DNA of 11,613 nucleotides, from NCBI GenBank assembly GCA_003695505.1, contig RFIY01000094.1, positions 1 to 11,613 on the forward strand, in the 5' to 3' direction. The notes under the pieces were generated by a model, which saw nothing but the letters and a program-made list of their open reading frames with translations, was not told the origin of the DNA and did not search any database. The position numbers and the translations under genes were made by a program. The DNA is from J088 sp003695505 [NCBI: Candidatus Dadabacteria bacterium] (lineage in GTDB: Bacteria > J088). Below, piece by piece: positions 2,523-11,140 of this stretch (positions are counted from its first letter, which is position 1; every line of letters begins with the position of its first letter).

Positions 2523-2526
<4 letters not shown>

Positions 2527-3131
2527 GCGTTGTGGAGTTCGGCCCAGAATGCCCGCAGGTCTTCGTCGGTTTGATCGGCGAGTGCGCGCAGTTCGTCGGC
2601 GACCGCGTTGTCGACATGTTCGGGCAACGCATCCGCCAGCGCCTCGGTGGCGGCGGCGCGACGACCCAGTCGCTCGAACAGTGCCGCGGCATCCGGCCGC
2701 AGTGCATCCGGATCAACGTTGGCGAGGTCGAGCCCGTCAGCAAAGCCATAGAGCGCGTCGGCCAGTGCGAGCGCAAACGGTCGGCCCGGTTGCGGCGACG
2801 AGACCGCCGTCAGCAGCGGCGCGCTGCGCGCGAGGGCGTCCGCCGTGGCGTCGACCAGCGCGGCGGCAAGCTCGATGGCCTGCAAACCCTGATTCGCCGA
2901 TGTCAGCTTCAGTGGGGCATCCGTATAGAATCCAAGAAGGTCGGCCGGCTCGATCGCATTCTTTGCGCACAGCGCGCCCGTCGTCGTCGCGATCAGTCGC
3001 CACGGATGCAGCGATGTCGGTACATACGGCGCAAGCAGTTGTGTCAGTGCGACGGCTGGGTGAGAGGTTGCGTTTGCAGGTTTCATCGGGGCAAAAATAT
3101 TCATTCGAAGCGTTGAGGCCAGCTTCTCCAT
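2523..3131 (-). CDS. Hypothetical Ala-rich helical protein, first gene of uvrB operon
   Basis: Unrecognised. Reading from ATG at 3131 gives 202 residues. The frame is open further upstream to 3272, but that extension is Arg-rich and unlike a protein N-terminus. In-frame ATGs at 3104 (193 residues) and 3086 (187 residues) are equally possible. None has a convincing Shine-Dalgarno site, so the start is uncertain. The product is rich in Ala, Leu and Asp, predicted mostly alpha-helical, with no signal peptide, membrane segment or recognised catalytic motif. The C-terminal half is acidic and helical, ending AFWAELHNA. Its TGA overlaps the uvrB ATG by four bases (ATGA), so the two are very likely co-translated. 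A link to DNA repair is only an inference from position. Third-position GC and the tight overlap support a real gene. Confidence 0.72.
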
Positions 3132-3298
3132 TCTCGCATGAGCGTCCACCGTTCTGGTAGTCTTCCGGTCTCCGATCGCGTCCCGGCGTTGGGATACGGT
3201 AGACTGCAATACAGGCCTCCGGTCGCGACGCGGGTCGCAAAGCCGCAGGCCTCTTGCGTCAATCGTTACCAAATACCCGGAGACAGGAAAGACGGATC
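3132..3298. other. Divergent intergenic region between uvrB operon and mce
   Basis: This 167-base gap separates minus-strand and plus-strand units and should hold both promoters. Towards mce, the hexamer TAGACT (3200-3205) is a possible -10 element, but no matching -35 is seen at 16-18 bases. Towards the uvrB operon I see no convincing promoter. No clear palindrome or operator stands out. Confidence 0.3.
3285..3290 (+). promoter_or_regulatory. Ribosome binding site deciding the GTG start of mce
   Basis: AGGAAA lies eight bases upstream of the GTG at 3299. It supports that codon rather than the in-frame ATG at 3254, which would add 15 residues not typical of the family. Confidence 0.7.
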
Positions 3299-3706
3299 GT
3301 GATCAAGAACGTTGACCACATCGGTATCGTGGTTCGCAGCATTGCCGACGTGCTGCCGGTCTACCAGACCATGTTCGAACTGGAATACCTTGGCGAAGAA
3401 GTCGTGCCTGATGGTACGGTCAAGGCGGCCTTCCTGAAAGCACCGGACGGCCCGACGAAGCTGGAACTGATCGAGCCGATCGACAATCCGGGCGTCGAGC
3501 GCTTCATCGAGAAACGCGGTGGCGGTCTGCATCACATCTGCTTTCTGACCGACGATATTGACCGTGAGCTGGCCGAACTCGCTGACAAGGGTGCGCAACT
3601 GATCGACAAACAGGCTCGTCCGGGTGCGCTGGGCAAACGGGTGGCGTTCCTGCACCCGAAGACCACGCAGGGTGTCCTTGTCGAACTGGCCGAGAAGCCG
3701 AAGTGA
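3299..3706 (+). CDS. mce: Methylmalonyl-CoA epimerase (VOC/glyoxalase fold)
   Basis: Interconverts (2R)- and (2S)-methylmalonyl-CoA in the cytoplasm. It links propionyl-CoA carboxylase to methylmalonyl-CoA mutase, and so propionate, odd-chain fat and branched amino-acid breakdown to succinyl-CoA. The 135-residue product has the family's usual length and begins (M)IKNVDHIGIVV, the standard N-terminus, when the GTG at 3299 is used. Expected metal ligands of the vicinal-oxygen-chelate fold are visible: His7 in DHIG, His79 in GGGLHHICF, and Glu129 in GVLVEL. LELIEP (55-60) and VAFLHPK (115-121) are further family signatures. The stop overlaps the GTG of the next gene by four bases (GTGA), placing an outer-membrane protein gene in the same transcript. 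No mutase or carboxylase gene is in the window. A related VOC enzyme is the only alternative, and the motif match makes it unlikely. Confidence 0.92.
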   Translation: MIKNVDHIGIVVRSIADVLPVYQTMFELEYLGEEVVPDGTVKAAFLKAPDGPTKLELIEPIDNPGVERFIEKRGGGLHHICFLTDDIDRELAELADKGAQLIDKQARPGALGKRVAFLHPKTTQGVLVELAEKPK

Positions 3707-5169
3707 ACCCGCGCAACATCTTTGCATTGCTGCTTGCGGCGGCGCTGTGGCCTGCAATGGCTGGCGCCGCCAGTCTGTTCGCCGACGACATTGCCGTTGG
3801 CGTCGACGGAGAGTGGCGTAACTGGTTCGAGTACGCCGTCGAACCCGACGGAGATCCGGTCGAGCGGCCCGAGACCGTCAATGTTGCGCAAAGCCGACTG
3901 CGCCTTGCACCGGAGCTGCTGGTCAACGAGTTTGTTCGGATCGAAACGCAGATTGATGCGATCGCATCCTGGGGGCAGGGCACCGGACCTTTCGACGTTG
4001 CGGCCGAAGGCGCTGACGCGACGTTGAGGATCGGCCGTGCGGCGCTGCACTGGCAGACGCCGATCGGCGCGATTTCCGTTGGGCGCGTCGGCTGGCACTG
4101 GGGGCTTGGCCTGTTCGACCACGACGGCCGCACGGATCTGGATCGTCCGGGGTTGCAACACGGGACGGGTGCCGCGGACATGTTGTTGCTTCGCGCCGCG
4201 CCACTGGGCGTCGATGAGCCAATGACGGTCTCGGTATTTGTGCGTCAGTGGTACTTTGGCGACCGCGGTCTGGGTTACGTCAGCGACGGCTGGAGCTACG
4301 GCGCGGCCGTCGAATATGAGGGAGACACGCGGGGCGGTCTGCAATTACGCGCCGATCGGCAACGTGATGCCGGGCTGCGGCAGCTCTGGGCCGACGGGTA
4401 CGGCATTGTGCCGATGGGCTCGCTGGCATTGCGGGCGGAAGCGGCTGTTCGCTTCGGCAAGGCCGATGAGGTTCCGCGGATCGACGCAACGGGGCTGTCG
4501 CTGTCCGAGCAGCCCGCCCAGTGGTTCGGCGGCGCGGCGATCGCGCGACTTTCGCTCGAGCAGGTGCGCGCGGGCAAGGTCAGCTTTCGGCCCACCGCGC
4601 TCGAGGGCGGTGCGATCTCTGGAGGAGCCTTCAATGACGTCCTGACGCGAAAATCCTGGGGTTGGGTGTCCTTGAATCCGGATTATCGCATTGGCTTGTT
4701 GCTGTTCGAGCAACTCTGGCGCGCACGGCAGGCGGCGTTGGCCGATGCGTTGCTCGACCGCGCGGTCGTGCGTCTTGGGACGGGGCGAGAAACGCTTGCG
4801 CAGACGCTGGACGGGCGCATCGGGGAGGGGCCCGGGAACGCCTGGTACCTTGCGCCGACGTTCGGAATCGAGACTGACGATCAGTTGCGGTTTCGTCTGG
4901 GTGCCGTCTGGGCAAGGGCGTTCTGGCCGGTGCCGACCCTGGAACTCCTCGATGATCGCGGCACGGCGCAACCACTCGACGATATCTATGGCTCCGGCCG
5001 CAATTACGGTGCCGAGATCAACCTGCATCTGAGCTATCCGCTCTGGGGTGGCGTCGTCGGTGTGATCGAGAGTGCAGTCGCGTTTCCCGGAAACATTTTT
5101 ACCAACAGTGCCGGACGGCGTGGTGATACGGCTTTCAGCCTGATGCCACGTTTGACAGTGTCGTTTTGA
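3703..5169 (+). CDS. Secreted outer-membrane beta-barrel protein, paralog 1 (TIGR04551-like)
   Basis: 488 residues starting at a GTG that overlaps the mce stop. A signal peptide is clear: NPR, then a hydrophobic core (about 6-19), with likely cleavage after AMA (20) or AGA (22). The mature protein is a run of amphipathic, Trp/Tyr/Gly-rich strands and ends in Phe (RLTVSF), the usual C-terminal signature of Gram-negative outer-membrane barrels recognised by the Bam complex. Two segments are shared with the next gene: GWHWGLGLFDHDG (130-142) and SLNPDYRIGLLLF (323-335), with the same order and spacing of surrounding strands. These recall a family of myxobacterial outer-membrane proteins (TIGR04551, from memory, not searched). 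Substrate and role are unknown; porin, exporter or adhesin barrel are all possible. Co-transcription with mce suggests, weakly, a metabolic uptake or export role. Confidence 0.85.
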   Translation: MNPRNIFALLLAAALWPAMAGAASLFADDIAVGVDGEWRNWFEYAVEPDGDPVERPETVNVAQSRLRLAPELLVNEFVRIETQIDAIASWGQGTGPFDVAAEGADATLRIGRAALHWQTPIGAISVGRVGWHWGLGLFDHDGRTDLDRPGLQHGTGAADMLLLRAAPLGVDEPMTVSVFVRQWYFGDRGLGYVSDGWSYGAAVEYEGDTRGGLQLRADRQRDAGLRQLWADGYGIVPMGSLALRAEAAVRFGKADEVPRIDATGLSLSEQPAQWFGGAAIARLSLEQVRAGKVSFRPTALEGGAISGGAFNDVLTRKSWGWVSLNPDYRIGLLLFEQLWRARQAALADALLDRAVVRLGTGRETLAQTLDGRIGEGPGNAWYLAPTFGIETDDQLRFRLGAVWARAFWPVPTLELLDDRGTAQPLDDIYGSGRNYGAEINLHLSYPLWGGVVGVIESAVAFPGNIFTNSAGRRGDTAFSLMPRLTVSF

Positions 5170-5181
5170 ATGGTCTAAGAT
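5152..5181 (+). promoter_or_regulatory. Sigma-70-type promoter for second barrel gene
   Basis: A perfect -35 TTGACA (5152-5157) and a four-of-six -10 TAAGAT (5176-5181) are separated by 18 bases. The -35 lies inside the last codons of the upstream barrel gene. The predicted transcript start near 5188 leaves only about 14 bases to the ATG at 5202 but about 62 to the ATG at 5250, which favours the latter as translation start. Confidence 0.65.
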
Positions 5182-5249
5182 AGCGCCATCGGACTGTCCC
5201 AATGTCCGGCTATATTGCCAACCGTACGCCAGAGGTTTCGGGCTTCCCT

Positions 5250-7046
5250 ATGCAGAGAACACGCCGTATCGCCCAGTCACGTCTGAACTCGGAACTCATC
5301 CTTCCGGCCATTGCCGCCGGAATCCTGAGCGCGGGGCTGTCCGGGGCGGCCTTTGCGCAGGAAGAACCGACGGAGGCCGCGCCGGCGGCTGAGGCGGCAG
5401 CCGCTGCATCTGAACCGGCAACGGCGGCAACCTCCAGCACCGAGTCGAGTGACAGCGACCTCTACTTTTTTGGCGATGACAGCGACCTCAGCGCCATTGA
5501 TGCGCTGCTCGAAGAACCGACATGGGACGGCCCGCGATTCGGCATCGATGGGTATTACCGCGCCCGCTGGAATGTCATCGGGAATCCGGGCGCCGAGTCC
5601 GACCGTGTGCAGGTTGGCCCCGATCGCCTTGATTTCATCCAGCACCGCCTGCGTTTGCAGCCACGCATTGAACTGAACGACAAGACCCGCATCGTCGCCG
5701 ACGCGATCGTCGGCGAGGGTGTACGTCGCTGCGATCCGTCAAATGCGATCCAGCCCTACCATCCGGGACCATGTAATGGATTCTGGGGTGCAAACGGGCT
5801 GACGGTGCTCGACAAACAGGCGGTGGACACCTTTTTCAATTTCAAGGTCGTCAGCTTTTGGGGCGAGGTCACCACCCCCGTCGGGGTCGTGCGTGTCGGC
5901 CGTCAGCCATCGCACTGGGGCCTGGGGATTTTTTCGAATGATGGTCTGCATGACCAGGATTTCGGAGACAACCACTTTGGCGACAACTACGATCGCTTCG
6001 TCTTCGCGACGAAACCGATGGGCGAAGACAGTGACCTGATCACCGCGCTGATTTACGATCGTATGTCGGCAGGAACGCCACAGCTCGGCATTCCAGGAAT
6101 GGCGCAGATCCAGGATCCGTCGAAGACGATTCACGAAGGCATCCTGGTGCTGCTGTACAAGACCGCGCCGCTCGATCTGGGTGTGTATCAGGTATTGCGG
6201 ACGCAAAACAATCCATTCTCGCGTATCATCGCAACCGACGTGTACGGACGGCTCGATATCGGGCTGTTGTATGGCGCGTTCGAAAGTGTCTGGGTCTATG
6301 GCAAGTCGCGCTCGCTGCCGTTCCTCGACCAGGAAGACCTGTCGTATCGCCTCGGTGACAAGGTCAAGGTCGGGCAGTGGGGCTGGGCCTTCGAGGGCGG
6401 CCTGCGGTTCGACTGGTACGACTTCAAGCTGAAGATGGGGAACGCCCAGGGCGATCAGAACCTGACCAACGACCGCCCGCGCCCGAAAGTCAAGTCGATT
6501 ACGTTGCATCCCGACTACAATATCGGCCTCGTGATGTTCGACTATGCGTACGCCAACCTGGTCGAGCGGCGCATTGCGCAGAACTTCGACCGCCTCGGCG
6601 TCCTCGTCGACGATGGTGTCCTGACGCAGGCCCAGGTTGACGAACTGCAGATCGCGGCCGATCTGGCGCGTACGAACGGCGGCGTATCCAATGCCTTCTA
6701 TGTCAATCCGATCGCGGTCCTGAATCCGACCGAGGATCTGACGGTCAAGGCCGGCCTTCTCTGGGCCCGTTCCAACGCCGGGATCGCGGTGCTGGGTGAG
6801 GGCGCGAATGCTGTCTACCATCACAACCTGGGCTGGGAATTCGACGGCGGATTCGAGTACCGGTTCCGGCAGCGGTTCGCCGTCGGCGCCGAGGGTGGCC
6901 TGTTGTTGCCTGGAGACGCGTTCGATCAGCCCGAGACGCGTCTCGATGTCGAGTCGGGGTTGAACGTTCCTGTTGCCGGCACGCTGTACAGCGCCGATCC
7001 GGTCTGGCTGAGTCAGTTGCGCTTCACGTTCTACATTCAGCCCTGA
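5250..7046 (+). CDS. Secreted outer-membrane beta-barrel protein, paralog 2 (TIGR04551-like)
   Basis: 598 residues from ATG 5250. An in-frame ATG at 5202 would add 16 residues before the basic start of the signal peptide (MQRTRR), so I prefer 5250; a loose AGAGG lies 14 bases upstream. The signal peptide has a hydrophobic core at about 17-35 and cleavage after AFA (36). A Pro/Ala/Glu/Ser-rich linker (about 37-67) follows, then an acidic stretch and a long barrel. Shared with the upstream paralog: PSHWGLGIFSNDG (220-232) and TLHPDYNIGLVMF (418-430). This copy is over 100 residues longer, with the added linker and a loop with two Cys (161 and 175) that could form a disulfide in the periplasm or outside. 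It ends RFTFYIQP, so the terminal aromatic is not the last residue. Function unknown. Its own promoter sits in the end of the previous gene. Confidence 0.85.
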   Translation: MQRTRRIAQSRLNSELILPAIAAGILSAGLSGAAFAQEEPTEAAPAAEAAAAASEPATAATSSTESSDSDLYFFGDDSDLSAIDALLEEPTWDGPRFGIDGYYRARWNVIGNPGAESDRVQVGPDRLDFIQHRLRLQPRIELNDKTRIVADAIVGEGVRRCDPSNAIQPYHPGPCNGFWGANGLTVLDKQAVDTFFNFKVVSFWGEVTTPVGVVRVGRQPSHWGLGIFSNDGLHDQDFGDNHFGDNYDRFVFATKPMGEDSDLITALIYDRMSAGTPQLGIPGMAQIQDPSKTIHEGILVLLYKTAPLDLGVYQVLRTQNNPFSRIIATDVYGRLDIGLLYGAFESVWVYGKSRSLPFLDQEDLSYRLGDKVKVGQWGWAFEGGLRFDWYDFKLKMGNAQGDQNLTNDRPRPKVKSITLHPDYNIGLVMFDYAYANLVERRIAQNFDRLGVLVDDGVLTQAQVDELQIAADLARTNGGVSNAFYVNPIAVLNPTEDLTVKAGLLWARSNAGIAVLGEGANAVYHHNLGWEFDGGFEYRFRQRFAVGAEGGLLLPGDAFDQPETRLDVESGLNVPVAGTLYSADPVWLSQLRFTFYIQP

Positions 7047-7086
7047 GTCAGGTGCAGAACGGGATCGATACCTGAGGGCTCGTTTT
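7039..7086 (+). terminator. Weak terminator-like hairpin after barrel gene 2
   Basis: AGCCC (7039-7043) pairs with GGGCT (7076-7080) and TCAGGT (7048-7053) with ACCTGA (7070-7075). This gives an interrupted 11-bp stem with a four-base bulge and a 16-base loop, followed by CGTTTT. The stem begins in the last codons. The short T tract and large loop make efficient termination doubtful. Confidence 0.35.
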
Positions 7087-7099
7087 CGGCCGTTGCGGC

Positions 7100-7108
7100 T
7101 GATAGAAT
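7100..7108 (+). promoter_or_regulatory. Extended -10 promoter for the PATAN-pyrF operon
   Basis: TGATAGAAT combines a TGn extension (7100-7102) with TAGAAT (7103-7108), five of six matches to the -10 consensus. No good -35 is present at 16-18 bases, which fits an extended -10 promoter. Transcription would start near 7115, giving a leader of about 27 bases before the GTG at 7142. Confidence 0.5.
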
Positions 7109-7141
7109 ACAGCTCGGAATCTGGCTTTCTGACCGGGCGGC

Positions 7142-8368
7142 GTGACCGTGTCGAACAATGACATCCTGATCCGGCTTTCGCCGCAACAACTGCGGGGCTT
7201 CGACGCTTCCTCCGAACAGCTTGCACTCGTTCAGGCGACCGGTGACGCAATTGTACTGCGGCGTGTCGCCGGTCAGGGGCGTTCACATGACCAGATTCGT
7301 GCCATCGGCACGACGGCGACGATTCCCGCAGCGGATCTGTTCCATGTCCTTAACCTGAATCACCTGACCGGCACGGTCGTACTCGCGGATGACGCGGCGA
7401 GCAAAACGGTTTTCTTGCGGAACGGCGAAATCATTTTCGCACAGAGTACACTGGCAGATGACAGGCTCGGCGAGAGCCTGATCCGGGCAGGGCTATTGAC
7501 CCAGCAGCAGCTCGACGACGCGGCGCGGTCCATTTCCGCCGACCGCAAGCTTGGGCAGATCCTGGTGGAGCAAGGGTGGATTACGCCGCAGCAGTTGTTT
7601 CAGGGGGTACGTCGGCAGGTCCGGGAGATCGTCTGGTCGCTGATCGACTGGAACGCCCGATTCGTCGTTTATGAGGGTTTTCGCGACCCATCCGCGGTTC
7701 TGGCGCTGAATCTGTCGACGTGGCATCTGCTGATCGACGGTATTCGCCGGAGCGCCGCGTGGGCGCATATCCCCCCTGAAGTGCCGGACAAGGAGATCAT
7801 CGTGCAGATCGCGGAGGATCCCGGCAACATGGCACTTACCCAGGAAGAACGGCGCGTGCTGGCACTGGCCGCTCCCGGTATTACGCTGGCGGAGCTGACC
7901 GCACAGGCGGGTCTCGGACGGCTCGAGACGGTGAAGGTCGTGCATCATCTGTTGCGACGGGGCATCGTCATTACAGGAGTGAGCGGACAGAAACCGGCCG
8001 GACAGCGCGATCCGGCGACGGAGCTCGCGCAGATCGTGGCGGCGTTCGGCGATGTCTTGCGTCTCGTGGATCGCCTCGTGCGCGCCAGCCATCCGGACGT
8101 CGATGTCTTCGGGCGGGTGAATCAGTTCATCGACGACATGCCGAAAGAGATGGCAGCCGTATTCGGTGCGCAGCGATTTGGCCCGGATGGCTCGCTCGAT
8201 GCAGGTTTGATCGCGGAACACCTGGCGGCCGCATCCGCGGGTCGCGTGCAGCTCGTTTCCGCATTCAATGAAGTACTCTATTTTATGCTGTTCGAGATCA
8301 AGCATCTGTTGTCCGAGTCCGAAACCGATCAGGTGCTCGCGGCAATCGACAAGATGAAACTGTTCTGA
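7142..8368 (+). CDS. DUF4388/PATAN-domain signalling protein, paralog 1
   Basis: 408 residues, cytoplasmic (no signal peptide or membrane helix). Layout: (1) residues 7-42, a short beta-rich unit, ILIRLSPQQL to DAIVLRRV, resembling a diverged AbrB/MazE-type swapped hairpin; (2) residues about 60-180, the DUF4388/PATAN core, with ADLFHVLNLNHLTGTVVL, the hallmark VFLRNGEIIFAQS (90-102), then two RLGESLIRAGLLT / KLGQILVEQGWIT repeats; (3) residues about 231-280, a winged-helix-like segment; (4) residues about 292-408, a conserved helical tail with FNEVLYFMLFEIKHLL (375-390). PATAN domains are known in deltaproteobacterial signalling proteins, often with receiver domains; no receiver is present here, so it is more likely an adaptor or output protein. 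The start is GTG 7142, with GTG 7148 as alternative; a weak GGGCGG precedes it. It lies 39 bases before its paralog. Confidence 0.85.
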   Translation: MTVSNNDILIRLSPQQLRGFDASSEQLALVQATGDAIVLRRVAGQGRSHDQIRAIGTTATIPAADLFHVLNLNHLTGTVVLADDAASKTVFLRNGEIIFAQSTLADDRLGESLIRAGLLTQQQLDDAARSISADRKLGQILVEQGWITPQQLFQGVRRQVREIVWSLIDWNARFVVYEGFRDPSAVLALNLSTWHLLIDGIRRSAAWAHIPPEVPDKEIIVQIAEDPGNMALTQEERRVLALAAPGITLAELTAQAGLGRLETVKVVHHLLRRGIVITGVSGQKPAGQRDPATELAQIVAAFGDVLRLVDRLVRASHPDVDVFGRVNQFIDDMPKEMAAVFGAQRFGPDGSLDAGLIAEHLAAASAGRVQLVSAFNEVLYFMLFEIKHLLSESETDQVLAAIDKMKLF

Positions 8369-8407
8369 ATCGATGGCTGACGCTACTGCAGTTGGAGCGC
8401 CTCTGCG

Positions 8408-9730
8408 ATGAGCAACGCACCCCGCATTGAAATCGAAGCCGGCGGCGTGCTCCGTCTGCCACCGGGTCTGCTGCGCGCCATGCGCGCGCCGCTCGGTACC
8501 GCATTTACGCCGCTGGCGGCGGGACAGAATGCATTGATTCTTTTCCGGGACGATGAACAGCAGCCCGTACACATCAACCCTCAGGACTGCGCATTGCTCG
8601 GGCGAATCGGCGCATTCGGTATCGCGGACCTGTTCAGCACGATCAATATGAGTCAGAAATCCGGTGTGCTGATGTTTGAATCCGGCACCGTCGTCAAGCG
8701 GGTCTTCTTTGAGTCGGGCGAGATCGTGTTCGCCGAGTCGAGTGATCCGCAGCATCGCCTGGGCGAGTTTCTGGTACGTCGCGGCAAGCTCAGCCGCGAA
8801 CAGGTCGATACGCTGTTGCGCCAGAAGACGCCAGGGGTGCGACTCGGCGCGCGGCTCGTTCAGGAAGGCTTTCTCAGCGCCCGCGATCTCTATGACAATG
8901 TGCGCGCGCAGATCGAGGAGATCATTTATAGCATTTTCCCGATGAGCGAGGGCTGGTTCTGGTTTTTCGAAGGTGATTTTCTCGACGAGGATCTGTCGCA
9001 GTTTCGCCTCAACACGCAGAACATCCTGATGGAGGGGTACCGCAGGCTGGATGAGTGGAGTCTGATGCGCGAAAAGATTCCACATCAGGATGTCATCATC
9101 GTTGTTCGGGAGGGTGCGACGCCCGATCGCTTCGACTCGCCGCAGGCAGAGAAACTGTTCGGACTCATCGACGGCAAGCGCTCGTTGAAGGTGCTCATGC
9201 AGAGATCCGGACTCGGGGAATTCGAGGTCACCCGGGCCGTATACGACCTGATGCGCAAGGGCCTGATTGACACCGTGGATCCGAAGGCCGTCCAGTCGGA
9301 GCGCGGCAAGACGGTCGAGGGGCTGATCGAGGCATATGACCGTCTGTTCCAGGTCATCGCGCAGGCGCTCGTCCGCGCCGGCCAGGGGGCCCTGATTGAG
9401 CCGCAGGCTTTCCAGGATCTCGTCGTCGGACTGGATGAGCGCGCTCGTGCCCTGCTTGACGGCGTGGCGTTTGACGCGGAGCGGGGACTGAGCGGATCGA
9501 TTCCGACGATTGTCGCAAATCTGGAACGTCTCCAGAAAGGGCAGAAGAGCGCCCTGGGCCAGATCGCGGGACTTGGAGACATGTTCCGACGGAAACAGGT
9601 TCAGAGCACGCTCGATGAGCTGCTCAATTATCTGTTGTTTACGTTGAAGAACGCGCTGCCGCCAGAGCAGGCCGACGCATTCATTACGCGAATTCGCACC
9701 GCACATCGGAAGCTGCGCGATGCGCGTTGA
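8408..9730 (+). CDS. DUF4388/PATAN-domain signalling protein, paralog 2
   Basis: 440 residues with the same four-part layout as the preceding gene, so the pair arose by tandem duplication and has diverged strongly. Residues 7-47 (IEIEAGGVLRLPPGLLRAM to NALILFRD) look more clearly AbrB-like than in paralog 1. The PATAN core (about 70-192) has ADLFSTINMSQKSGVLMF, VFFESGEIVFAES (99-111), then HRLGEFLVRRGKLS and VRLGARLVQEGFLS. A winged-helix-like segment spans about 245-290 (AEKLFGLIDGKRSL, EFEVTRAVYDLMRKGLI). The helical tail (about 303-440) contains LDELLNYLLFTLKNALP (402-418), matching the tail of paralog 1. Unlike paralog 1, its core ends in an aromatic run, GWFWFFEGDF (182-191). ATG 8408 follows TTGGAG (8392-8397) by 10 bases. 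Its last 11 bases overlap pyrF. No receiver, GTPase or enzymatic domain is seen; partner and signal unknown. Confidence 0.87.
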   Translation: MSNAPRIEIEAGGVLRLPPGLLRAMRAPLGTAFTPLAAGQNALILFRDDEQQPVHINPQDCALLGRIGAFGIADLFSTINMSQKSGVLMFESGTVVKRVFFESGEIVFAESSDPQHRLGEFLVRRGKLSREQVDTLLRQKTPGVRLGARLVQEGFLSARDLYDNVRAQIEEIIYSIFPMSEGWFWFFEGDFLDEDLSQFRLNTQNILMEGYRRLDEWSLMREKIPHQDVIIVVREGATPDRFDSPQAEKLFGLIDGKRSLKVLMQRSGLGEFEVTRAVYDLMRKGLIDTVDPKAVQSERGKTVEGLIEAYDRLFQVIAQALVRAGQGALIEPQAFQDLVVGLDERARALLDGVAFDAERGLSGSIPTIVANLERLQKGQKSALGQIAGLGDMFRRKQVQSTLDELLNYLLFTLKNALPPEQADAFITRIRTAHRKLRDAR

Positions 9731-10421
9731 TGCCGCCGGGCGCGTGATCCTTGCGCTGGATACCGATGACGCCGCGCAGGTGGATGCCTGGCTTGCGCAG
9801 TGGCCGGAGCTTCGCTGGGTCAAGGTAGGCCTGCAACTGTTCGTTCGCCAGGGGCCACAACTGGTGCGTGATTTGCGCGAGCGCGGCCTGCGGGTCTTTC
9901 TCGATTTGAAACTTCATGATATTCCCAACACCGTGGCCCACGCGGTTGCCGCCGCCGCCGATACCGGCGCGGATCTGTTGACGGTCCATGCGCTCGGTGG
10001 ACGCGCGATGCTGGAGGCTGCAGCAGATGCGAGGGATCGATCGGGCGGTGACCTGCGTCTGTTGGCGGTCACCGTATTGACGGCGCACGATGACGCGGCC
10101 TGGGCAGAACTGGGCATGGGCGACTCCATCGACCGATCCGTCGAGCGCCTGGCTGAACTGGCGCGGTTCTCGGGCATCGATGGGCTCGTTTGCAGCCCGC
10201 TCGAAGTCGCGCGGCTCAGGCAGCAGCACCCAGACGCCCTGCTGGTCACGCCAGGTGTCCGTCTGCAGGGGCAGGCAGCCGGCGATCAGCGGCGGGTCGC
10301 GACGCCCGGAGGAACGCTTGCCGCAGGCGCGGATCTGCTGGTTGTCGGTCGCGCGCTGACGGCCGCAGAAAACCCTGCGCAAGCGTGGCGCGATCTCGTC
10401 GCCGATATCGACGGATCTTGA
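9720..10421 (+). CDS. pyrF: Orotidine 5'-phosphate decarboxylase
   Basis: Catalyses the last step of de novo pyrimidine synthesis, OMP to UMP plus CO2, in the cytoplasm. 233 residues, normal for the bacterial group I enzyme, a (beta/alpha)8 barrel. Active-site residues: Asp14 in VILALD, Lys35 in WVKVG, and the catalytic Asp62-x-Lys64-xx-Asp67 set in FLDLKLHDIPNTV. LLTVHALGG (86-94) is the next conserved strand. LLVTPGVRLQG (174-184), GDQRRVATP (188-196) and VVGRAL (208-213) form the pyrimidine and phosphate-binding end. ATG 9720 lies 11 bases inside the upstream PATAN gene, in a different frame, so translation is probably coupled. The TGA overlaps the TTG start of the next gene (TTGA). A pyr gene in operon with signalling adaptors is unusual. 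No other pyrimidine gene or PyrR-like attenuator is visible nearby. Confidence 0.97.
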   Translation: MRVDAAGRVILALDTDDAAQVDAWLAQWPELRWVKVGLQLFVRQGPQLVRDLRERGLRVFLDLKLHDIPNTVAHAVAAAADTGADLLTVHALGGRAMLEAAADARDRSGGDLRLLAVTVLTAHDDAAWAELGMGDSIDRSVERLAELARFSGIDGLVCSPLEVARLRQQHPDALLVTPGVRLQGQAAGDQRRVATPGGTLAAGADLLVVGRALTAAENPAQAWRDLVADIDGS

Positions 10422-11140
10422 ATCACAAGTCCTCAGACCGGAAGTCGCGGTCGCTGACGGTTGGTGGCCGACACGTCTGCGAAGCCGCGGCCGCAGCCGG
10501 ACGACTGCAGCGGCTGTTCGTATCCGACAGCGAACCAGCATGGGCGCGCCGCCTGGATGTCCCCGTTGAAACGGTATCGGCGGGGGAGCTGCGTCGACGT
10601 TTCGGTAGTGAAGCATCTCGTGGCGCCGTTGGTGAGGTGGTTGCACCGGAACCGATTGCCGCGGATGAAGTCCTGGCACGCGCTGCAGACCTCGAACGGC
10701 CGGTGGTCGTCCTCGAAGATGTTCAGGATCCGCAAAATCTCGGATCGGTCTTTCGTGCCGCCGCGGCATTCGGGGCTGCGGGCATCATCCGCACGCGCCA
10801 CCGCAGCGCGCCGTTATCTGCGACCGTCTTGCGTGCCTCAGTGGGGACGGCCTTTCGCGTACCGTGGGCAGAGGTCGGCGGGTTGCCGAACTGGCTGCTG
10901 AAGGTGGAGATCCCGGCCGTGGGTTTCGTCGTGAATGGCGGTACGCACCCGGCAGGATTGAACCTGCCACAACCTCTGCTTCTCTGCTTTGGCAGCGAGG
11001 GGCGCGGACTACGCCGGCTGACAGTGAAACGATGCAGTGACCGCGCAACCCTGCCCATGGAGTCGGCCGAGAGCCTCAATGTCGCGCAGGCCGTCACAGC
11101 GGTACTGTACGAATTTCAGCGTCAGCGTTTGTATCCCTGA
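10418..11140 (+). CDS. TrmH/SpoU-family RNA 2'-O-ribose methyltransferase
   Basis: SAM-dependent SPOUT methyltransferase that methylates a ribose 2'-OH in tRNA or rRNA. The trefoil-knot motifs are all present: motif 1 VVVLEDVQDPQNLGSVFRAA (96-115), with the Asn and Arg pair of the active site; motif 2 LLLCFGSEGRGLRRL (187-201); motif 3 LPMESAESLNVAQAVTAVLYEF (212-233). An N-terminal substrate-binding region (13-80) begins LTVGGRHVCEAA, like RlmB, but the usual HQG turn reads SRGAVGEV (68-75). 240 residues from TTG 10418, which overlaps the pyrF TGA. The frame stays open far upstream, but that extension is an Arg/Ala-rich shadow of pyrF. The next in-frame starts downstream would cut into the conserved N-domain. 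Target site (tRNA Gm18, 23S G2251 or another) cannot be told, so no symbol is given. Last gene of the operon. Confidence 0.93.
   Translation: MNHKSSDRKSRSLTVGGRHVCEAAAAAGRLQRLFVSDSEPAWARRLDVPVETVSAGELRRRFGSEASRGAVGEVVAPEPIAADEVLARAADLERPVVVLEDVQDPQNLGSVFRAAAAFGAAGIIRTRHRSAPLSATVLRASVGTAFRVPWAEVGGLPNWLLKVEIPAVGFVVNGGTHPAGLNLPQPLLLCFGSEGRGLRRLTVKRCSDRATLPMESAESLNVAQAVTAVLYEFQRQRLYP

Follow-up and report, generated by a model that had tools for sequence, protein, structure and literature searches.

The window analysed here is a stretch of 11,613 nucleotides (contig RFIY01000094.1, assembly GCA_003695505.1) from a Candidatus Dadabacteria bacterium, and its forward strand carries two genes for PATAN proteins, P0001 (P1; positions 7142–8368, 408 amino acids) and P0002 (P2; positions 8408–9730, 440 amino acids). 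The genes stand in tandem with a 39-base gap and are flanked by two TIGR04551-like genes and pyrF. PATAN, the DUF4388 family of Pfam (PF14332), is a domain of obscure biochemistry through which signals are linked to type IV pili and cell pattern. Both reading frames are intact, from a GTG at 7142 and an ATG at 8408, and each protein contains one DUF4388 domain, split by an insertion, that scores over the cut-off of 25 (P0001: residues 59–207, positions 7316–7762, 69.1 bits; P0002: residues 65–218, positions 8600–9061, 100.8 bits), in agreement with an earlier sequence-only reading of this DNA. The Pfam search found no receiver domain (PF00072) in P0001 or P0002 at E ≤ 1. The two proteins aligned over nearly their full length at 26% identity (E = 9e-35); the shared order of their parts is therefore not a matter of chance, and the low identity rules out a recent duplication, as the same reading had held when it called the pair strongly diverged.

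AlphaFold models of P0002 and P0001 reached a predicted local distance difference test (pLDDT) score of 79.2 and 76.7 and a predicted template modelling score of 0.51 and 0.61, respectively. In both models, a strand-helix-strand core carrying a four-helix insertion is followed by a winged helix (P0001: residues 213–282, positions 7778–7987; P0002: residues 222–292, positions 9071–9283) and a helical tail (P0001: about residues 291–407, positions 8012–8362; P0002: about residues 303–438, positions 9314–9721). The four-part order proposed earlier thus stands for the core, the winged helix and the tail, and its beta-rich N-terminus was modelled only at low confidence (block-mean pLDDT of 33–52 in P0002). 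An AbrB/MazE-type fold for this N-terminus, convincing by eye, was confirmed by neither Pfam nor PDB searches; a PDB search with the N-terminus of another relative returned polyubiquitin chains only, with no stretch significant alone. When the winged helices were compared with known structures by VIA-align, chains of the GATOR1/KICSTOR and SEA complexes ranked first (P0002: Z 9.4–9.8; P0001: Z 8.7–10.7). We take these chains to be NPRL2/NPRL3, which in GATOR1 form a heterodimer of longin plus winged-helix proteins. We do not read this ranking as kinship, since other winged helices (2yu3, 8hkr) come close (Z 8.3–9.3) and the best whole-chain Foldseek matches were insignificant (E 0.12–0.16). 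The likeness perhaps reflects only a common arrangement.

The insertion in the PATAN domain

The LGE/LGQ repeats of both proteins lie in the insertion, which spans 52 residues (P0001: residues 108–159, positions 7463–7618; P0002: residues 117–168, positions 8756–8911). The sequence-only reading had assigned these repeats to the PATAN core, which is excluded because short-form DUF4388 proteins lack them. A profile search of each protein placed NF053729, the NCBIfam model of the MshE-related motif for cyclic di-GMP (c-di-GMP), over its cut-off of 38 in both, as it did PF14332; P0001 scored 45.2 bits, at the same coordinates in a search of the whole genome, and P0002 scored 38.6 bits over residues 117–164, only just above the cut-off. 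The host genome encodes six DUF4388 domains, of which only those of P0001 and P0002 overlap a stretch that NF053729 matches above its cut-off. Alignment A2, made up of eight proteins of the pair family plus the single one of genome G091, matched NF053729 at E ≤ 1 in all nine members. In sequence searches of the PDB, PilF ranked first for P0001 (E = 3.5e-6) and MshE (5htl) for P0002 (E = 0.0055), closely followed for P0002 by SurE entries (E = 0.013) that fail to span the motif in register.

The predicted structures point the same way. Four helices stand at the insertion in both models (residues 118–124, 130–138, 146–152 and 158–174 in P0002), flanked by the strands of the PATAN core. Superposition by VIA-align on MshE bound to c-di-GMP (5HTL) gave a root-mean-square deviation of 1.8 Å over 60 residues at 33% identity for P0002 (Z 5.8) and of 2.0 Å over 59 residues at 29% identity for P0001 (Z 5.9), and Foldseek aligned 5HTL with the P0001 model at a probability of 1.00 and 1.1 Å over 53 columns, but with an E-value of 0.48. 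These structural scores also count against the assignment: the Z-values are middling by the tool's own note and under its safe level, a Z below 8 is weak when taken alone, and neither model yielded a Foldseek match in the PDB at E ≤ 0.001. Since sequence profile, motif register and modelled fold agree, we conclude from them that the insertion is a homologue of MshEN_N, the module with which pilus and secretion ATPases bind c-di-GMP.

MshEN_N, the N-terminal subdomain of GSPII (MshE in 5HTL, GSPII-B of PilF), has two 24-residue motifs, four helices and most of the contact residues in common with the pair. It sits N-terminal to an ATPase, whereas the module of the pair is inserted in a PATAN domain; its two motifs are joined by five residues, not by four as in P0001 and P0002; and two of its ligand-contacting residues, Gln32 throughout and Leu29 mostly, are replaced in the pair. 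Cyanobacterial PATAN-receiver regulators of the PixG, PixE and PatA type share the PATAN core (PF14332) with the pair, which lacks their receiver, and short-form DUF4388 proteins (domains of 98–102 residues) share the core without the insertion. A helical insertion figures in the title of a 2006 paper by Makarova.

We then compared PATAN domains from a sample of 386 genomes, 146 of which encode DUF4388, short or long, at E ≤ 1e-5. The best 150 matches measured either 98–102 residues (45) or 151–189 residues (105), with no intermediate lengths. When 22 long domains were aligned with 20 short ones, the difference came down to one insertion, located after the fourth core strand in the models; NF053729 matched 12 of these 42 domains at E ≤ 0.01. 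A separate profile was built from the N-termini of 28 PilB-type ATPases and contained no PATAN sequence (28 of 30 loci were used; L155 and L158, in which the match began late, dropped out). At 8 bits or more, a line set after the scores had been seen, this profile matched 38 of 52 long PATAN domains, none of 20 short domains, which we had picked ourselves, and none of 1040 shuffles. Lines at 5, 15 and 20 bits gave 46, 37 and 32 of the 52 long domains and 2, 0 and 0 of the 1040 shuffles. By source, matches at the 8-bit line came from both window proteins, from 27 of 30 domains that a program had chosen at the best survey matches (L067–L096) and from 9 of 20 that we had picked among other survey matches (L117–L136). 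Gln or Asn occupied both ligand-binding Gln positions in 16 of the 52 long domains (P0002 among them, its gap being set so as to favour it), and both glycines were kept as well in 15 of the 16. These sequence comparisons suggest that many proteins of the PATAN family are unrecognised c-di-GMP sensors.

The remaining 14 long domains scored below 8 bits, including those of two PATAN-receiver proteins (L073, L083), and for these fourteen we infer homology to MshEN_N from the place and length of the insertion only. The insertion of L073 and L083 has another layout and, unlike that of the pair, is not matched by the PilB-derived profile, which may reflect decay of the module. Among other long-form proteins, L067, L070 and L076 carry an MshEN-type insertion fused to tetratricopeptide repeats and keep 13 or 14 of the 14 motif positions, with all 14 ligand-motif positions kept in L070 and L076. 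T2SSG (PF08334) is matched, narrowly above its cut-off of 21, by the C-termini of L069 (23.6 bits) and L094 (24.2 bits), and the long-form PATAN gene of locus L226 (genome G151, about 3329–6465) stands divergently beside genes that look pilM- and pilN-like by eye.

The partner domains of MshEN named by Wang 2016 are receiver, HD-GYP, CheA, CheX, cyclase and kinase domains, and PATAN is not named in the parts of that paper covered, its supplementary tables aside (PMC5013675; this and the other papers are cited from parts of their text). Within the same limits, no paper was found that links PATAN, DUF4388 or PF14332 to MshEN, GSPII or c-di-GMP. Both PATAN and MshEN are known parts, here in a new arrangement. 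The homology itself was already implicit in the NCBIfam motif model, which matches such proteins; the tie to PATAN and its two length classes was not found in those papers. Should the insertion be an MshEN module, a candidate ligand would be at hand for PATAN, and c-di-GMP binding could be tested in part of a widespread family.

Ligand positions of the insertion

Contact residues were taken from Wang 2016 (PMC5013675, main text in part) and tallied in 17 pair proteins in an ungapped reading. The Gua2 half-site (R38, G40, L10, L54, L58, Q61) is kept: L10, G40, L54 and Q61 are present in all 17 proteins, position 38 is Arg or Lys in 16 and His in one, and position 58 is Val or Ile. Gln61 corresponds to Q159 in P0001 and Q168 in P0002. 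In the Gua1 half-site (R9, G11, L25, L29, L39, Q32), R9 is kept in 16 of 17 and G11 in all. Two other Gua1 positions speak against a retained ligand site: position 29, Leu in MshE, is Ala, Ser or Glu in 16 of the 17 proteins, and position 32, Gln in MshE, is Ile, Val, Leu, Met or Lys in all of them. The turn glycine at position 47, kept in just 9 of 17, adds to this side. P0002 allows an alternative reading in which Q139 falls at position 32 if a one-residue gap is moved, and by inspection the single P2-type proteins of genomes G149 and G288 show the same Gua1 loss.

Six residues of the module (Leu10, Gly11, Gly18, Gly40, Leu54 and Gln61) are invariant in all 17 proteins. Of the 12 positions invariant across the proteins, 7 lie within the 52-residue module (hypergeometric p = 2e-4), 6 of them at the 14 positions of its motif (p = 4e-7). 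A reduced set with a single P1 and a single P2 per lineage, for four lineages, has 14 invariant positions, of which 7 lie in the module (p = 6e-4) and 6 coincide with the motif (p = 1e-6). All these p-values assume exchangeable positions although the sequences are related, and serve as a guide only. The motif positions are also less variable than the remaining residues of the module (mean entropy of 0.73 against 1.52 bits, p = 0.001).

Published mutants and natural variants bear on both sides of the question. In Thermus PilF, changing one Gln to Glu raised the dissociation constant from 6 nM to 460 or 950 nM (77- or 158-fold), and changing both abolished binding (PMC11731258). Partial loss of a half-site is therefore compatible with weak binding; the same mutants also weigh against binding by the pair, in which Gln32 is replaced throughout. 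GSPII-A of PilF did not bind even after its consensus motif had been restored (PMC12002112), which counts against binding too and means that sequence alone cannot settle the matter, and XpsE/GspE is an MshEN-type domain without binding (PMC5013675). Since Gln32 and mostly Leu29 are replaced, the affinity of the pair for c-di-GMP is probably reduced; going by the residues kept and lost, the pair may bind weakly, through a site shared between chains, or no longer at all. We consider the chances that the module still senses c-di-GMP to be about evenly balanced.

Conservation of the pair

The survey of gene neighbourhoods found P1 directly before P2 in ten genomes of four phylum-level lineages: the window, G044 (one of two genomes covered from its phylum), G014 (the only one covered from its phylum) and seven of nine genomes covered in the phylum of G020. 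According to kinship labels, G044, G014 and G020 belong outside the phylum of the window, and phylum searches keep these three apart; no other genome of the window's own phylum was among those returned. The second genome of the G044 phylum, G189, holds only a fragment of the P2 tail and a different PATAN protein. In the phylum of G020, G389 likewise holds only a P2-tail fragment and another PATAN match at E ≤ 1e-25, and G386 holds nothing of the pair at that threshold. Among ten loci examined separately, eight hold the pair and are the same contigs as eight of the ten genomes, and the other two, L065 and L066, have a weak P2 relative only.

Downstream of the pair, pyrF (orotidine 5'-phosphate decarboxylase; positions 9720–10421, forward strand; NF001273 253.4 bits, cut-off 193) overlaps the end of P0002 by 11 bases. 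Besides the window, seven further pair genomes have pyrF after P2, and at L057 and L062 the contig ends at P2. A P2 profile built from the window, G044, G020 and G014, which therefore match by construction, reached E < 1e-100 in eight genomes of the 386-genome survey among the matches listed; pyrF adjoins P2 in all eight and P1 in six. Weaker P2 relatives in G091 and G360 adjoin pyrF as well, and pyrF was not found at E ≤ 1e-3 in eight other loci (G056, G151, G297, G009, G003, G123, G175 and G136). We take the link to pyrF as conserved co-transcription without a role in pyrimidine synthesis. After pyrF, an RlmB-like rRNA methyltransferase frame (positions 10250–11140, forward strand; TIGR00186 99.2 bits, under the cut-off of 160) has a counterpart in G044 and G014, and rlmB was not found behind P2 in the remaining pair genomes.

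On the tree of these proteins, the P1 label needs 3 changes and the P2 label 2, and the labels form one clade in 2% (P1) and 54% (P2) of bootstrap trees. The labels cluster beyond shuffles, an effect that near-copies alone can cause, and the P1 branches are long. A single origin of the pair is unsupported because P1 was not recovered as one clade. A search for viral relatives returned 52 pattern-matching stretches, none of which encodes a relative. The proposal of the sequence-only reading that function keeps the genes adjacent fares unevenly: the order of the two genes recurs across ten genomes from four phylum-level lineages, which makes a joint function plausible, and P2 stands beside pyrF without P1 in G149 and G288.

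Candidate functions and further features of the window

We propose, at about even confidence, that P0001 and P0002 form a c-di-GMP-responsive adaptor pair whose target is perhaps the pilus motor PilB. The two proteins would be cytoplasmic adaptors of the long PATAN type, in which the PATAN core with its inserted MshEN_N module is followed by the winged helix and the helical tail. The module would bind c-di-GMP or a related guanine nucleotide, P1 and P2 would work as one complex, and ligand binding would alter the docking of the PATAN core, the winged helix or the tail on a partner, for which the type IV pilus extension ATPase PilB is a candidate. We lean somewhat towards P1 and P2 acting together as one complex. 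Although on balance doubtful, PilB is the likeliest single target, because PATAN proteins bind PilB1 in Synechocystis (PMC10519157, PMC12288463) and a PilB-type ATPase (named by eye), which carries the NF053729 motif, occurs in the host. The host genome also encodes 10 GGDEF domains. The absence of pilus or c-di-GMP genes recognised beside this pair and the variation of its upstream genes among lineages (by eye, an MgtE-like transporter, PurA and a sigma-54-type regulator) weigh against the proposal. If it is true, PATAN regulation of PilB, which bears the same module, would have a direct point of contact with c-di-GMP. We regard a bolder form as rather improbable: the long PATAN insertion would be an MshEN module throughout, intact in some lineages and decayed in others, making a large unrecognised class of c-di-GMP effectors, and in the pair one two-fold symmetric c-di-GMP would be held between P1 and P2, with one intact half-site each, and would assemble the heterodimer.

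The sequence-only reading had placed PATAN in the context of receivers and Ras-like GTPases. PATAN genes do sometimes stand near mglA/mglB genes (PMC4316618), and c-di-GMP signalling, which that reading missed, is an equally natural context. In Myxococcus xanthus, MXAN_3211 and MXAN_4965 are named as PATAN genes (PMC11580455). Neither a receiver nor a GTPase occurs in the window, as it stated, but this tells little, and two roadblock domains (PF03259, MglB-type) are encoded elsewhere in the genome. On another host contig (C323), L051 encodes a protein of 561 amino acids that NF053729 matches above its cut-off (55.7 bits) and whose remainder looks like a divergent PilB by eye, and another DUF4388 gene lies about 3.6 kb away.

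The strongest competitor of the c-di-GMP-responsive adaptor pair, appreciably possible though short of even, is an insertion of MshEN_N descent that no longer binds nucleotides and acts instead as a helical scaffold or a surface for protein docking, the adaptors being purely structural. Such a loss would fit the replacement of Gln32 in all 17 pair proteins and of Leu29 in 16, the 14 of 52 long PATAN domains, L073 and L083 included, that fall below 8 bits with the PilB-derived profile, and the existence of the non-binding MshEN-type domains XpsE/GspE and PilF GSPII-A mentioned above. It fits less well with the six motif residues that are invariant in 17 of 17, the Arg, Lys or His always found at position 38 and the low entropy of the motif, and retention of Gln is not expected in a pure scaffold. 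An unlikely account treats P1 and P2 as tandem duplicates without joint function, held together by chance in a pyrF operon. The fast evolution of P1 and its failure to form one clade leave room for independent duplications, and P2 occurs alone in G149 and G288; yet the same order recurs in ten genomes of four phylum-level lineages despite differing upstream genes.

We consider it very improbable that the pair is a transcription regulator, with the winged helix and an AbrB/MazE-type beta-rich N-terminus as its working parts and the MshEN insertion as ligand sensor. The winged helix is well matched (best Z of 9.8 for P0002 and 10.7 for P0001), and the N-terminus of the G091 relative matches MazE_antitoxin at E = 0.0039, with other P2 N-termini alike by eye. 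That match reaches only 17.6 bits, under the cut-off of 24.7, the window proteins have no match to MazE_antitoxin or an AbrB/MazE relative in Pfam at E ≤ 1, the N-terminus of P0002 was modelled at low confidence, and many winged helices do not bind DNA.

Other features of the window touch the pair less closely. A scan of positions 6900–11000 for promoters and terminators returned nothing above shuffles. On the minus strand, a frame of 249 amino acids (positions 2523–3272), whose start is possibly misread, lies between uvrB and the gene for methylmalonyl-CoA epimerase and has no match in Pfam (E ≤ 1) or NCBIfam (E ≤ 0.1). Just upstream of P0001, the genes at 3703–5169 and 5202–7046 are likewise diverged homologues in tandem (24% identity); both are weakly TIGR04551-like (60.5 and 99.1 bits, cut-off 300) and perhaps encode outer-membrane barrels.

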